From: Candidatus Binatia bacterium
GTDB taxonomy: Bacteria > Desulfobacterota > Binatia > UBA9968 > JAJDTQ01
Assembly: GCA_951813575.1 (NCBI GenBank)
Contig: OX638375.1
Location: 2,743,042 to 2,807,041 of the forward strand
DNA: 64,000 bases
Direction of reading: 5' to 3'
The notes beneath the pieces are model-generated. The model did not search any database. It saw only the letters and a list, made by a program, of their open reading frames with translations, and had not been told where the DNA came from. Shown piece by piece: positions 1-19,252 of this stretch. Position 1 is the stretch's first letter, and each line of letters starts with the position of its first letter. Position numbers and translations under genes: made by a program.

Positions 1-331
1 ACCTCGGTGGCGTAGGCGCCGAAGGTGAGGCTCAGGGCCGACACGCCGGCGATGAAGGGGTTCGGCTCGAAGAAGCCGGTGGCGCCGAACAGTGCGGCCG
101 CGCGCCCGATGACGGCGGAGGCGCCGAAGTACACGATCAGGACCACCAGCAGCTCGGGTACGCCGCGCACCGCGGTGCGCAGCAGCCGCCGGCGGGACAT
201 CCGGGCCGCGGCCCCGCGAGGCCCAGGAGCAGGCCGCCGGCCAGGGAGGCGACCGCCAATCCCGCGGTCGCCAGCGCTCCGGCGGCGAGCTGGGTGCCGA
301 AGCCGAGGAGCACCGGCGGGAGCCCGTCCAT
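1..331 (-). pseudogene. Amino-acid ABC transporter permease, 5' part, frameshifted
   Basis: This is the N-terminal part of an integral-membrane permease of the HisM/ArtQ type, which would import polar amino acids with the binding protein just upstream. The ATG at 329-331 sits behind a GGAGG ribosome site and opens a hydrophobic helix (LAAGALATAGLAVASLAGG). Near 215-228 the frame is lost. The conserved continuation lies one frame over: MSRRRLLRTAVRGVPELLVV, then IVYFGASAVIG and FEPNPFIAGVSALSLTFGAY, the usual motif before the permease core. A single-base indel would join the two parts. The gene runs off the left edge, so the EAA loop is not seen. Either the transporter is decaying or the base call is wrong; the nonsense codon in the adjacent gene favours real decay slightly. 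Confidence 0.7.
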
Positions 332-349: not shown

Positions 350-1114
350 CTAGTAGATGTCGAAGGGGAAGTATTTGGCGTTGATCTTTTTGTAGGTGCC
401 GTCGGCGAGAATGGCGGCCAGCGCGTCGTTGAGGCGTTGCCGCAGCACGTCATCCTCCTTGCGCACCGCGATGCCGATGCCTTCGTCCAGCTCGTAGGCC
501 TCGCCCACCAGCATGAAGCCGGCCCCCGCCTTGGTCTTCAGCCATTCGTGCAACACCAGGCCGTCGGCGAAGATGGCGTCGAGCCTGCGGGCGGCCAGGT
601 CGAGGTAGGCGTTGGTCTGGGTATCCTAAAGCTTGATCCTGGCGCCGCCGGCATTCTTTTCGAGCCAGCTCGCCGCAATGGTGGCGCGCTGGGCGCCGAT
701 GGTCTTGCCGGCAGGTTTCTCGGGATCGAAGCCGCCGTCCCTGGCGGCCACGAAGCGCACCTTGTTGCTGTAGTACTTGTCCGTGAAGCCGACGACCTTC
801 TTGCGCTCGGCGGTGATCGACATGCTCGCCACTATGGCGTCGTACTTTCCGGCCAGCAGCGCCGGGATGATGCCGTCCCAGTCCTGTGCCACCAGCTTGC
901 ACTGGACCTTCAAGCGCTCGCAGAGCGCCAGCGCGATGTCGATGTCGAAGCCCTTGAGCTGGCCGGACTGGTCGACCACGTTGAACGGCGGGTAGGCTCC
1001 TTCGCTGCCGATGCGGAGCGGGTTGGGCACGGCGTCATCCGCGTAACCCGTGTACGCGCCGAGCATCGCGAACGCAACCAGCGCCCTGGCCAAGTATGTA
1101 ATGAGCCGTTTCAC
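350..1114 (-). pseudogene. Polar amino-acid ABC transporter substrate-binding protein with in-frame TAG
   Basis: This is a periplasmic solute-binding protein of the lysine/arginine/ornithine/histidine family (SBP family 3), about 254 codons, which is normal length. A signal peptide (MKRLITYLARALVAFAMLGAY) is followed by the family hallmarks SEGAYPPFNVVD, KGFDIDIALAL, DWDGIIPALLAGKYDAI and SMSITAERKKVVGFTD. The reading frame is interrupted by TAG at 626-628 (ARIKL-stop-DTQTNAYLDLA). The same frame then continues without fault through LDAIFADGLVLHEWL and GIAVRKEDDVLRQ to a second TAG at 350-352. The homologous position is usually an aromatic residue, so one base change would restore it. The permease start lies 19 bases past the final stop, so this is an operon. 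A premature stop here should give a non-functional protein unless TAG is read through. Confidence 0.85.
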
Positions 1115-1311
1115 GTGTCCTCCGATCTGCCCACGGACGGGGCGTTTGCGTGCTCTGACGGAGCTTCAGTTCGTAAAGGGGATTCTCCGGGCTACAGCTT
1201 GGCGCTTCAAGGCGCGTGCCGTCAAGGTGCCGAACTTCACGCTGGCGCCATCGTTGCCCGCATCGGTCGTTGCGGGTTGCCCGAGCGGCGGGGAATTGGT
1301 TTACTCGACCC

Positions 1312-2223
1312 ATGGAGCCGACGACTTCCGCAGCATGGCGGCATGCGCGAACGGCGCTGCGGGGCCTGGCCTTGGGCGGGCTCGCGGCGGTGTTGTTCGT
1401 CTCGAGCGCGGCTGCCGGAGAAGGGCGGCTGCAACTTGCCTACAAGGTGTATTTCGTCGGGGTCCACGCCGCCAATCTCGGTCTCGGCGTCAGCTTCGAC
1501 GGGGCCGCGTATGACGCCGATGCGGCGGCGTACGATCTCCATGCCACAGCCTATGCGGTACAGGCGCGTTTCAAGACAACCGGCCTGGTCAAGGGACTGA
1601 CGCGCTGGAAGACGACGGCGTATTCGCGCGGAACGCTGGTTCTTGGGGATGTCGTGCCGGTCCGGGCAGGCTACCGGGACAAGCAGTGGTGGAGAAAGCG
1701 TCTCGTCGAGCTCGGCTTCGACCAGGGAACGCCGAAGCTCGTGCGCATGAAGCCCCGCAAGGAGCCCAGGGTTTCTCCCTCCCAGCTCAAGGGAGCGCTG
1801 GACCCCGCCGGCGCCTTCCTCGCGTTGCTTGCCCGTTTCGATGCCGGGCAGGGATGCGGGATGCGCATTCCCATCTTCGACGGACGCCGTCTCCGTGAGC
1901 TCGTGGGCGAGACGGACGGAGACGGCACCGGCCGGCTTGAGGCCAACCGGTACTCGCCCTTTGCCGGCCCCACGGTCGACTGCCGCGTCCGGGTCGCAAG
2001 GAAGGCGGGATTCAAGCGGAGATCCGACGGGCAGGAGCGCAAAGACATCGAGGTGCAGCTCCGGATGGCGCGCGTGTTCGACGAGATGCCGCCGGTGCCC
2101 GTCCGGCTTGCCAGCGACACCCGGTACGGGGCGCTGGCCGCGCACCTGGTCCGAGCGAACCTGGACGCGGCCGGCCTGAAGCGCGAACTGCGTCCCCGCC
2201 CCGGCAGGAAACGCCGCCGGTAG
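1312..2223 (+). CDS. DUF3108 family secreted protein
   Basis: This is a 303-residue protein with a signal peptide (about residues 15-35: ALRGLALGGLAAVLFVSSAA). The mature part begins LQLAYKVYFVGVHAANLGL, the typical opening of DUF3108 proteins, which are predicted periplasmic or outer-membrane-associated beta-rich proteins of unknown role. The ATG at 1312 is chosen because the signal peptide begins shortly after it; the open frame extends further upstream without a good signal sequence. The C-terminus is very basic (RPRPGRKRRR). It is transcribed divergently from the ABC binding protein and convergently with the downstream exporter, whose stop codon abuts its own TAG. Biochemical function is not known for the family. 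Confidence 0.75.
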   Translation: MEPTTSAAWRHARTALRGLALGGLAAVLFVSSAAAGEGRLQLAYKVYFVGVHAANLGLGVSFDGAAYDADAAAYDLHATAYAVQARFKTTGLVKGLTRWKTTAYSRGTLVLGDVVPVRAGYRDKQWWRKRLVELGFDQGTPKLVRMKPRKEPRVSPSQLKGALDPAGAFLALLARFDAGQGCGMRIPIFDGRRLRELVGETDGDGTGRLEANRYSPFAGPTVDCRVRVARKAGFKRRSDGQERKDIEVQLRMARVFDEMPPVPVRLASDTRYGALAAHLVRANLDAAGLKRELRPRPGRKRRR

Positions 2224-3417
2224 TCAGGCTTTCTCGTCTGCTGCCTCGCCACGCACGGGATCCCGGCTGCGTGGTGCGCCTCCCTCTCCCTCGGCCCATT
2301 TCATTGCAGCGAAGGCGCCCGCTCCGAAGACCGCGTAAGCGGCAATGTGGGCGTACATGGTTCCATCGAAGTTCAGGCCCACGAGTGCACCCAGCGGTAG
2401 CGCGATGAAGGTGGGGAGGGAAGCGACCACGGACGCTCCCACTCCGGCGATGTGGCCCAGGGGCTCCATGGCGAGCGCATTGAGATTTCCGAAGAGGAAT
2501 CCGACGCTCGAAAAGACGACGAGCATGTAGGCCATGAACAGCCACAACGGAGGGAGCCCGTCGAAGGCCCATGCCAGCGGCCACGAAACGACCGAGGCCA
2601 ATGTGATGGACACCGTCGCCGTCATCGCGACCCGGCGCATCCCATGCTTCAACACGACGCGGCCGTTCATGAGCGAGGCGCAACCGATGGCAAGGGCCAG
2701 CGTTCCGAAATAGGCCGGAAAGAGCGCGCCGGTCCTGTAGGCTTCCTGGAAGATTTGTTGGGCAGAGCTCAGATAGGCGACGAACGACGCCAACACGCAT
2801 CCTGTGGCGAGGGTATATCCCAGCGCGGTCCGAATCCTCAGGATTTCCAGGACGGCTCCGCCGATGGTCCGCGGGGAGAACGGTCGCCGGCGGGCGACGG
2901 GCAGGGTCTCCGGCTGCCGGAGCGCGAACCATGCGAACGCGATGGCGGCGACGGCGAACAACATGGCGAATATCGCGCGCCAGCCTCCCAGCCACAGGAT
3001 CCCCTGTCCGAGGGCCGGAGCGACAGCGGGAACGAGGATGAACACGGCCATGGCGAAGGACATGAGACGGGCCATTTGCCGTCCTTCATACTGATCGCGC
3101 ACCAGGGCTATGATCACGATGCGCGGTCCGGCGACCCCGATGCCCTGCAGGACACGGCTCGCGATCATCACCTCGAAGGTGGGCGCGAAGACGCTCATGA
3201 GGCATCCCGTCATGAACAGGACGACGCCGGTATGGATAGCGGTCCTGCGGCCAAAGCGATCGGAGAGCGGGCCGAAAGCCATCTGGCCAAGGCCGAGGCC
3301 GAGGAAAAGAGCCGTGACGACGAACTGCACGTCGTTTCGGCGCGCCGCCCCGAGGTCGTCGCCGATGGCGGGCAGCGCCGGCAGCATCACGTCGGTGCTG
3401 AGCGCGGGGAGCGACAT
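2224..3417 (-). CDS. Bcr/CflA-type MFS drug-efflux transporter (N-terminus interrupted by TAG)
   Basis: This is a major facilitator with 12 predicted helices, probably a proton-driven drug exporter of the Bcr/CflA subfamily. It shows the family start (STDVMLPALPAIGDDLG), motif A (GPLSDRFGRRTAIHTG) and the motif C region (RVLQGIGVAGPRIVIIAL). The ATG at 3415-3417 falls inside the first helix. The same frame reads upstream through RLGEFVPLVALL, which completes helix 1, to a TAG at 3484-3486. Beyond that stop it continues to an ATG at 3577-3579 (MGTLFNSPDKSRRR...GKE). The native gene was therefore probably about 451 codons with a nonsense codon at position 32, or it starts at a non-standard codon. 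The shortened form would lack most of helix 1, so function is doubtful. Confidence 0.8.
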   Translation of the reverse strand: MSLPALSTDVMLPALPAIGDDLGAARRNDVQFVVTALFLGLGLGQMAFGPLSDRFGRRTAIHTGVVLFMTGCLMSVFAPTFEVMIASRVLQGIGVAGPRIVIIALVRDQYEGRQMARLMSFAMAVFILVPAVAPALGQGILWLGGWRAIFAMLFAVAAIAFAWFALRQPETLPVARRRPFSPRTIGGAVLEILRIRTALGYTLATGCVLASFVAYLSSAQQIFQEAYRTGALFPAYFGTLALAIGCASLMNGRVVLKHGMRRVAMTATVSITLASVVSWPLAWAFDGLPPLWLFMAYMLVVFSSVGFLFGNLNALAMEPLGHIAGVGASVVASLPTFIALPLGALVGLNFDGTMYAHIAAYAVFGAGAFAAMKWAEGEGGAPRSRDPVRGEAADEKA

Positions 3418-3595
3418 CAGGAGGGCGACGAGGGGAACGAACTCGCCGAGACGGAGGGCGGGCGTTCGATTTTGAACTGGATTCTACTCCTTCCCCAGGA
3501 AGCACGTCGCCGGGTTGTTGGAATCCTCCGGCTGTAAGCGGCGCCTGGACTTGTCAGGACTGTTGAAGAGGGTTCCCATGAGGGATGCCTCTTAA

Positions 3596-3610
3596 GTGAG
3601 TTGCACTCAC
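3596..3610. promoter_or_regulatory. Perfect inverted repeat, operator-like
   Basis: GTGAGT-TGC-ACTCAC is a perfect 6-base inverted repeat with a 3-base centre. It lies 17 bases upstream of the extended exporter start at 3579. Small palindromes of this form upstream of efflux genes are typical of TetR-family operators, but no regulator gene lies alongside. The regulatory role is inferred. Confidence 0.35.
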
Positions 3611-3697
3611 ATGCATATTATTGTCCGGTGGGTTGAGGCAACCGGTTCGAAAGGGAGGCGGCGGAGTTGGCCCGGGAAACCGGGTCAGCGAGTGGTG

Positions 3698-4051
3698 TCA
3701 GGGAAAGAAGACCAGCTTGACCAGCAAGGCGACAATGGTCGGGCCGAAGGTGAACACGGCCAGTTTCATGACTGCAAATTCACGCTTGAGCGCGCCGATC
3801 TCGTCCTTCAACTCGGCCCTAAGTTCGGCCATCTCTTGCTTGAGCTCGGCCTTGAACTCGGCCATCTCTTGCCTGAGCTCGGCTTTGAACTCGGCAAAAT
3901 CTTGCCTGGTATCGGCCTTGAATTCGGCCAGGTCTTGCCTGGTAGCGAGGGTCTCCACCATCGGAATCGCGCCGGCGGCCGCCTTGGCCTTGTCGTCGGG
4001 AGCTCCCGCCGCAACCAGGGCGTCGTAGACCTCTGAAACGATCAAGCTCAT
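3698..4051 (-). CDS. Small coiled-coil membrane protein with internal repeats (copy 1)
   Basis: This is a 117-residue protein with three parts. The N-terminal block is SLIVSEVYDALVAAGAPDDKAKAAAGAIP. A middle coiled coil (about residues 32-93) is built from near-identical 11-residue units such as RQDFAEFKAEL, RQEMAEFKAEL, KQEMAEFKAEL and KQEMAELRAEL. A C-terminal membrane helix (FGPTIVALLVKLVFFP) ends the protein. The start at 4049-4051 is chosen because a homologue at 23914-24285 begins at the same point. The plan resembles CCDC90/DUF1640-type coiled-coil membrane proteins. It stands alone between the exporter and the aromatic cassette. Function is unknown. Confidence 0.7.
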   Translation of the reverse strand: MSLIVSEVYDALVAAGAPDDKAKAAAGAIPMVETLATRQDLAEFKADTRQDFAEFKAELRQEMAEFKAELKQEMAELRAELKDEIGALKREFAVMKLAVFTFGPTIVALLVKLVFFP

Positions 4052-4280
4052 CGGGTCGTTCTCCAGACGTGCTCCGCGCCCGATGCAAACCCCATGGCAC
4101 CAGCAAACCGCGGGAATGTCAAGTACTGTAGCAACCGGTCCAAATGGGGAGGCGTGACGATCATATGAACATCTATCGGCAATGGATGCGGGAACCTTAG
4201 TCGTCGCTCCGCATCTTGACACCCAGGGAGCATTTGGTTGGTGTACGAGCCTGATCCATTGGAGGAAACCTCAGCGGCTC

Positions 4281-5231
4281 ATGGCCAACAAAGTACTGAG
4301 AGTCGGCGTAGCCGGCCTCGGGGAAGCGGCTACGGAGTTCCTGCCCGACTACGCCGGCGACCCCCGCGTCCGGCTGCTGGCGGCCGCGGACCAGCGGACC
4401 GCCGCCCGCGAGCGGTTCACGGCGGAGATCAAGGGCAAGGCCTACCCTACGGTCGAGGAACTCTGCGACGACCCCGACATCGACATCGTCTACGTCAGCA
4501 CGCCTCACGAGCTTCACCACCGGCACGTGTTGACCGCCCTGCGGGCCGGGAAGCACGTCATCGTCGAGAAGCCCATGGCCCTCTCGGTCGAGGACTGCGA
4601 GGCCATGAACCGGGAAGCGGAGGGCCGCGGGCTCCAGATCCTGTGCGGGCACAACCACAGCTACGACGCGCCCGTGACCCGCATGCGCGAGATCGTCAGG
4701 AGCGGCGAGCTGGGCCGCCTGCGCATGATCAACACCTGGAACTTCAACGACTTCATGGTACGGCCGTATCCCGACTTCGCCCTGGAGATGAGCCGCGGTG
4801 TGGTGTTGAACCAGGGACCGCACCAGGTGGAGATCGTCCGCTTGCTGGGGGGCGGCATGGTGCGCAGCGTGCGTGCCATGGCCGGAAGCTGGGACGAGAC
4901 GCGTCCGGGCGAGGGCGCGTACGCGTGCTACCTGGAGTTCGAGGACGGCACTCCCGCCAGCCTGGTCTTCAACGGCTACGGCTTCTTCGATACCGCGGAG
5001 CTTTTCTGGTGGATCGGAGAGGGAGGCACGCCCCGTTATCCGGGCAAGCACGCCGGTTCCCGGCGGAACTACCGGCAGCTCAGGGACCTGGACCCGGCCG
5101 AGCGCGAGAGACTGCTGGAAGACCTCAAGACCCGGATGCGCTACGGCGACGTGGGGCTGGGACAACACGCGGCCATGCCCGAGGGTTGGGAGAAGGGCGG
5201 GTTCCGTTCCGGCGACGGCGTAGCGCAGTAG
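4281..5231 (+). CDS. Gfo/Idh/MocA dehydrogenase (phthalate dihydrodiol type), ended early by TAG
   Basis: This is an NAD(P)-dependent dehydrogenase of the Gfo/Idh/MocA family, similar in build to the dihydrodiol dehydrogenases of phthalate catabolism. The Rossmann fold opens VGVAGLGEAATEFLPDY, followed by the conserved EKPMALS lysine motif near residue 98 and a catalytic-domain NQGPHQVEIVRLLGGG. The ATG at 4281 follows a GGAGGAAACC region. The frame stops at TAG 5229-5231 (GDGVAQ-stop), but the same frame continues RHQPFFGLTVVSCEKGDMRQ and so on to 5528, which supplies the missing C-terminal strands. The product as coded is 316 residues against about 415 for the restored gene. Neighbours are a LigB-type and a Rieske dioxygenase, which fits a phthalate-like pathway. 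Confidence 0.8.
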   Translation: MANKVLRVGVAGLGEAATEFLPDYAGDPRVRLLAAADQRTAARERFTAEIKGKAYPTVEELCDDPDIDIVYVSTPHELHHRHVLTALRAGKHVIVEKPMALSVEDCEAMNREAEGRGLQILCGHNHSYDAPVTRMREIVRSGELGRLRMINTWNFNDFMVRPYPDFALEMSRGVVLNQGPHQVEIVRLLGGGMVRSVRAMAGSWDETRPGEGAYACYLEFEDGTPASLVFNGYGFFDTAELFWWIGEGGTPRYPGKHAGSRRNYRQLRDLDPAERERLLEDLKTRMRYGDVGLGQHAAMPEGWEKGGFRSGDGVAQ

Positions 5232-5258
5232 CGGCACCAGCCCTTCTTCGGCCTAACC

Positions 5259-5528
5259 GTGGTGAGCTGTGAGAAGGGCGACATGCGGCAGTCCCGGGAC
5301 CATATCCAGGTCTATGGCGACACGAAACGGGAGATCCACGTGAGTCAGGAACGGGTCCGGCGACGGGCCGAGATCGACGAGATGTACGGCTCCCTGGTGG
5401 AGGGACGGCCGCTGTTGCACAGCGGCCGCTGGGGTCAGGCCACCATCGAGGTCTGCGCCGCCATCCTCCAGTCCACCAGGGAACGGCGCGAGATCCGGCT
5501 GTCCCACCAGGTGCCGTTCCCCGACTGA
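5259..5528 (+). pseudogene. C-terminal segment of the Gfo/Idh/MocA dehydrogenase after the in-frame TAG
   Basis: This is the same reading frame as the dehydrogenase that stops at 5231. It carries what looks like the family C-terminus: VVSCEKGDMRQS, HIQVYGDTKREIHV, EIDEMYGSLVEGRPLLHSGR, WGQATIEVCAAILQST and EIRLSHQVPFPD. A GTG at 5259 could in principle start translation, but there is no ribosome site and the segment lacks the nucleotide fold. It is best read as the tail of one gene of about 415 codons. The ring-cleavage dioxygenase begins 17 bases after the TGA. Confidence 0.75.
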
Positions 5529-18025: not shown

Positions 18026-19252
18026 ATGAACCGCATGAACGAATTCGTTGACGCCAAAGAGGGCTTGCTGAATCGGCAGGTCTTCGTCTCCCAGGACATC
18101 TACGAGCAGGAGTTGGAGCGGATCTTCGCGCGCTGCTGGCTGTTCCTGGGGCACGAGACCCAGATTCCCAATCCCAACGACTTCCTCGCCACCTACATGG
18201 GGGAGGACCCGGTGCTGCTGTGGCGGGGTGGGGACGGGACGGTGCGGGCGTTTCTCAACATGTGCCGCCACCGGGGGAACCGGGTGTGCCGCGCGGACCA
18301 GGGCAACGCCAGCTCGCTCATGTGCACCTACCACGGCTGGTGCTACGGCAACGACGGCAAGCTCATCGGCGTTCCCGGCATGAAGGAAATTTACAGCGGC
18401 GAGCTGGACATGACGCAGTGGGGGCTGGTGGAAGTGGCGCAGCTCGAGATCTACAAGGGGCTCGTCTTCGCCACCTTCGACCCCGACGCGCCGCCGCTTC
18501 TGGAGTATCTCGGCGGCCAGGACCAGGAACTGAGCTTCATGTTCGACCGGCGCGCCGGCGGCACCGAGGTCATCGGCGGCGTGCACAAGTGGGTCATGAA
18601 CGCCAACTGGAAGTACGCCGCGGACAACTTCTTCGGCGACGATGGCCACCACACGGTCACCCATGCGTCCGTGCGCCGGGTGCCCGTGGACGTCCGGTAC
18701 TACCCGCAGACCAACGACGATGCGCGCCCCGATACCGACCGGGGGCTCTCCCGGGTGGCCGAAGGCCTTATACGGGACTATCACCAGGAGCATTTCGACG
18801 AGTTGATCCAGCGCATCGGCCCAGACTTGGCCGACCGCCCCGGGCTGGTCACCACCGTATTCCCCAACCTGTCGCCCAACTTCAGCCGGCACATGATCCG
18901 GCTGTGGCACCCCAAGGGCCCGGACAAGACCGAGATCTGGTCGTATTGCGTGGTGGACAAGGACGCGCCCGAGGAGGTGAAGACCGCCATGAGGCTGCAC
19001 CTGACCCAGACCTTCGGCCCGGCCGGGAACCTGGAGCAGGACGACATGAACAACTGGATCCAGTGCACCGACACCGCGCGTGGCGTCATCGCGAAGCGCT
19101 ACCCGCAGAACATCCAGGCCCATCTCGGACACGAGGACCGTTGCCCGCCCATCGGCGGCGGCAGGCGGCTGCGGGCCTTCTACTCCCGCTGGGAGATGAT
19201 GATGAACGCCGACACCTGGTCCGACGTCGACCTGGAGACGCGGTACTGGTGA
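18026..19252 (+). CDS. Rieske ring-hydroxylating dioxygenase alpha subunit (copy 1)
   Basis: This is a 408-residue terminal oxygenase large subunit of the biphenyl/naphthalene-dioxygenase type. The Rieske domain (about residues 70-100) has CRHRGNRVC and CTYHGWCYG. The catalytic domain has the iron ligands in [14 protein letters not shown] (about 206-219) and [10 protein letters not shown] near 350. The ATG at 18026 aligns with the start of the second alpha copy and follows GAGGTGA. A consensus promoter lies 60 bases upstream. The partner beta gene is at 19301. No ferredoxin or reductase gene lies in the locus. By eye, differences from copy 2 cluster after the iron-binding histidines (about 228-260), which in this fold contributes to the substrate pocket. 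Confidence 0.88.

Follow-up and report, generated by a model that had tools for sequence, protein, structure and literature searches.

Genes and features at the locus

We analyzed a window of 64,000 nt (OX638375.1, positions 2743042 to 2807041) of Candidatus Binatia bacterium (GCA_951813575.1), the genome of which consists of a single contig of 4.21 Mb, is 98% complete, and has a GC content of 66%. The contig that holds the window is designated G000:C1, and the genomes of congeners are designated G001, G002, and G005 to G007. The features at the left end of the window are compiled in Table 1; they belong to (i) an ABC transporter, (ii) a DUF3108 gene, (iii) an MFS exporter gene, and (iv) a dehydrogenase gene. 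All three TAG codons reported in the original prediction were found in the sequence. The accompanying statement that they lie inside genes holds for the binding protein and the dehydrogenase, in which the reading frame carries family-like sequence both ahead of the TAG and past it, but not for the MFS exporter, where the TAG is outside the gene. Scored with a codon model that had been trained on this genome, the former two genes showed in-frame coding signal on either side of the TAG; such a signal was absent around the TAG near the MFS gene.

Table 1. Features at the left end of the window (window positions)
Feature	Position	Strand	Evidence or remark
N-terminal part of ABC transporter permease 1, probable pseudogene	1..331, extends past left edge of window	-	Alignment with six congeneric copies
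Family-3 solute-binding protein of polar-amino-acid ABC transporter, probable pseudogene	350..1114	-	PF00497 spans internal TAG; six intact congeneric orthologues
Premature TAG in binding protein	626..628	-	TAC (Tyr163) in six congeners
DUF3108 gene	1312..2223	+	Open frame, ends in TAG; not part of transporter
Bcr/CflA-family MFS exporter gene	2224..3474	-	Frame open, start codon lost
Leader TAG upstream of MFS start; ends short upstream frame	3484..3486	-	Orthologue comparison
Gfo/Idh/MocA-family dehydrogenase, probable young pseudogene	4281..5528	+	316 of 415 residues precede stop
Premature TAG in dehydrogenase	5229..5231	+	In linker of variable length, just before conserved motif

The order of the MFS and DUF3108 genes in the window (1312 to 3474) is also found in G002, and the order DUF3108-MFS-binding protein is found in G005, G006, and G007. 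Since gene order differs among the congeners, the block has been rearranged.

Lesions in the transporter operon

Orthologues of the binding protein in six congeneric genomes are of equal length, 79 to 84% identical, and uninterrupted. The codon at 626 to 628, TAG in this genome, is TAC (Tyr) in all six of them, whereas the natural stop (350 to 352) is TAG here and likewise in the congeners. A plasmid search with the binding protein returned only matches with less than 60% identity.

In the congeners, two permease genes follow the binding protein. In this genome, permease 1 has lost 1 nt between window positions 217 and 218 and 21 nt between 177 and 178, and permease 2 carries an 8-nt deletion 776 bases to the left of the window, at approximately G000:C1 2742265, because of which it matches in two pieces and two frames. 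These three deletions are absent from all six congeneric permease copies and present only in this genome. The original prediction had described all positions other than the TAG codons as conserved, which is wrong in view of these deletions and of the lost start codon of the MFS gene. Judging from the sequence, the entire transporter appears to be disabled. A stretch of about 1.9 kb (G000:C1, approximately 2740060 to 2741960), which separates permease 2 from the conserved sequence that comes next, is absent at this place in the congeners; by eye, its open frames resemble glyoxalase-like and acyl-CoA-dehydrogenase-like proteins.

Start of the MFS exporter gene

This genome has CAA at 3472 to 3474, where the five closest MFS orthologues have a TTG start with GGAGG just before it. 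The TTG start of the orthologues lies downstream of the position of the TAG at 3484 to 3486, as does the ATG start of two other MFS homologues, one of which is a paralogue encoded at 3.87 Mb of the same genome. The first in-frame canonical start of the MFS frame is the ATG at 3415 to 3417, and there is none between the TAG and this ATG. In G007, a near-identical leader segment likewise ends in TAG. The TAG is an ordinary leader stop and no interruption, and the lesion of the MFS gene is that of its start; the proposed interruption is refuted under the condition that the original prediction had itself set, since the MFS homologues begin downstream of it. Readthrough into the MFS gene from an upstream ATG (MGTLFNSPDKS..FLGKE, followed by the stop) was also considered and was rejected, because in congeners this short frame is a separate one and the MFS gene begins farther downstream.

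The short upstream frame (window 3487 to 3579, minus strand, beginning MGTLFNSPDKS..) may represent either a leader peptide or a remnant. In three congeners, a comparable short frame, METLFNSPDKSLP, ends ahead of the MFS start. The MFS paralogue (G000:C1:3874558-3875769) is 79% identical to the copy in the window, has an intact start, and lies beside a multicopper-oxidase-like gene.

Dehydrogenase gene

Homologues of the dehydrogenase (51 to 59% identity) read on past the position of the TAG, and the conserved motif that follows the linker is RHQPF in this genome. Identity to the nearest homologue is equal before and after the TAG, both in the alignment (0.56 and 0.56) and by tblastn (0.58 and 0.58), and on either side of it most differences are at third codon positions, which suggests that the stop is young. 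We considered whether the 316-residue product that the TAG leaves could function as a shortened enzyme, as the recognized Pfam domains end at about residue 235, ahead of the stop. This is unlikely, since the 98 residues that are lost include segments shared by all full-length homologues aligned, none of which ends there, and since the coding pattern is kept after the TAG, which indicates that this stretch was translated until recently. Assignment as a young pseudogene is less certain for this gene than for the operon, because a single lesion was seen and no close orthologue was found; a scan of the genome contigs for the dehydrogenase retrieved only distant relatives.

Constraint and age of the lesions

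The dN/dS ratio of the binding protein relative to its congeners was 0.22 to 0.29, as compared to 0.15 to 0.29 between congeners. The binding protein has 7 changes at otherwise invariant sites (including the stop) versus 5 to 6 in congeners of comparable divergence. At such sites, permease 1 has ten substitutions, which is somewhat raised relative to the congeners (at most six). Relaxation of constraint appears slight overall, which is what recent lesions would be expected to show, and it is not seen in the binding protein. The hardly raised values of the binding protein fit recent decay, and they also fit an error in the sequence.

Distribution of lesions in the genome

Genome scans covered 1.66 Mb, or about 40% of the genome, taken as stretches. 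The scan for in-frame interruptions, the threshold of which was set after scoring the two known TAG cases, both missed by a stricter threshold, returned ten candidates for which no new start was plausible, of which five had TGA, four had TAG, and one had TAA. The only convincing TAG interruptions were those of the binding protein and the dehydrogenase. A comparison of 82 genes with those of congener G001 (median identity, 86%) flagged five, namely, the dehydrogenase, a gene near 3.354 Mb that may be frameshifted, two tandem paralogues that are an artefact of the method, and a stop that occurs two residues earlier; only the dehydrogenase and one other look truly broken. The possible frameshift is in a gene outside the block (G000:C1, approximately 3354100 to 3354920), the match of which to its G001 relative is split into two pieces and two frames. 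As a second control, we compared 23 gene positions with congeners, and only two were broken, both in the block, with 18 of 18 outside it intact. The local cluster of lesions exceeds chance.

The coding-model scan and both orthologue controls led us to reject global sequencing error as the cause. A local sequencing or assembly error, in which a poor-quality stretch of the contig would hide genes that the organism has in intact form, would agree with a divergence of the binding protein close to that of its functional congeners. It is improbable nonetheless, since lesions of several kinds occur together, among them a changed start codon and deletions of exactly 8 and 21 nt, and since the remainder of the sampled genome has very few broken genes. 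The confinement of the two longer deletions to one block also makes the base-calling problem raised in the original prediction unlikely. Another explanation offered there, a decaying block, is supported by independent disabling lesions (a stop, two frameshifts, the 21-nt deletion, and a lost start) in adjacent genes that are intact in the congeners.

Search for amber decoding

As had been noted, other genes of the window also end in TAG, and this codon terminates about 36% of the modelled genes. Under the codon usage of this genome, approximately 66% of one-step nonsense mutations give TAG, so that premature stops consisting only of TAG are expected by chance (P of about 0.28 for three of three and 0.43 for two of two).

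Dedicated machinery was sought at several levels, as the original prediction had proposed for pylS and for a pylT or other CTA-anticodon tRNA. (i) The PylS N-terminal domain TIGR03912 had no match in the genome, and the Methanosarcina control was detected. (ii) PF01409, the family to which the PylS core belongs, had two matches, a strong full-length match, presumably PheRS as judged from the family, and HisRS; there was no PylS-like extra match. (iii) No PF06253 match, indicative of MttB, was found in the genome. (iv) None of the 44 tRNAs retrieved with RF00005, with anticodons read with ARAGORN, had a CTA anticodon, a result that alone is no proof, since a divergent tRNA-Pyl could escape RF00005 outside the sampled 40% of the genome. 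Nothing found here indicates that TAG is translated as an amino acid in this bacterium. tRNA-Ile(GAT) and tRNA-Ala(TGC) were not among the 44 tRNAs; they perhaps lie in a missing rRNA spacer.

The sequence after both internal TAG codons still looks constrained, as it would if TAG were decoded as pyrrolysine or by a suppressor tRNA and the binding protein and the dehydrogenase were made full length. We rejected amber recoding on the basis of the PylS, PF01409, MttB, and tRNA searches, and consider it highly improbable given also the frequent use of TAG as a terminator, the lack of TAG interruptions elsewhere in the 1.66 Mb scanned, and the permeases, which are frameshifted and would leave the transporter broken even if TAG were translated. 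The same observations argue against the partial amber readthrough put forward in the original prediction; that background readthrough maintains small amounts of the full-length forms of the binding protein and the dehydrogenase without visible dedicated machinery has a very small likelihood.

In-frame TGA codons

The same tools revealed in-frame TGA codons in other genes. At G000:C1 532753 and 818536 (both minus strand), a match to AhpC/TSA (peroxiredoxin family) spans the TGA; the scan listed 818536 with a weak alternative start. A tRNA-Sec above the family cutoff is encoded at G000:C1:4075269-4075359, and the genome very likely uses selenocysteine. A 412-residue frame with an in-frame TGA at G000:C1 1031093 (plus strand), with the motif Y-TGA-PYC and no Pfam match, is possibly a third selenoprotein. 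Another TGA, at window position 19250, separates the alpha subunit of a ring-hydroxylating dioxygenase from the beta subunit.

Interpretation and comparison with known systems

Taken together, these data make it very probable that the block reflects ordinary gene decay and comprises a polar-amino-acid ABC transporter operon that decayed recently, an MFS gene without a start, and a young dehydrogenase pseudogene. The operon of a binding protein and two permeases, intact in congeners, would have been inactivated in this lineage by separate lesions, namely, the change of TAC to TAG in the binding protein, the 1-nt frameshift and 21-nt deletion in permease 1, and the 8-nt frameshift in permease 2. 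The neighboring MFS gene would have lost its TTG start, and the nearby dehydrogenase would have acquired one premature TAG. Ribosomes would terminate at the two internal TAG codons, leaving fragments that we infer to be nonfunctional. For the organism, this suggests a recent loss of one polar-amino-acid uptake system. The case also calls for caution, since most chance nonsense mutations in a GC-rich genome are TAG, and two or three adjacent ones can mimic recoding. Checking the neighboring genes against congeners for frameshifts settles the choice between decay and recoding.

Pyrrolysine decoding is accompanied by PylS, a tRNA with a CTA anticodon, and methylamine methyltransferases with an in-frame TAG. 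The block resembles it in having an in-frame TAG followed by conserved sequence. It differs in that no PylS, MttB, or CTA tRNA was found, in that the operon partners are frameshifted, and in that the TAG replaces a conserved Tyr in the binding protein and sits in a variable linker in the dehydrogenase. Recoding of TGA as selenocysteine is visible in this genome, but in other genes, and does not concern the TAG codons of the block.

Bacterial pseudogenes have been surveyed (PMC522871) and reviewed (PMC11078800). The block agrees with such pseudogenes in having a premature stop and frameshifts in genes intact in relatives, in that several adjacent genes of an operon are hit, and in that the remaining genome is intact. 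There is no difference of note, the run of TAG codons following from GC-rich codon usage.
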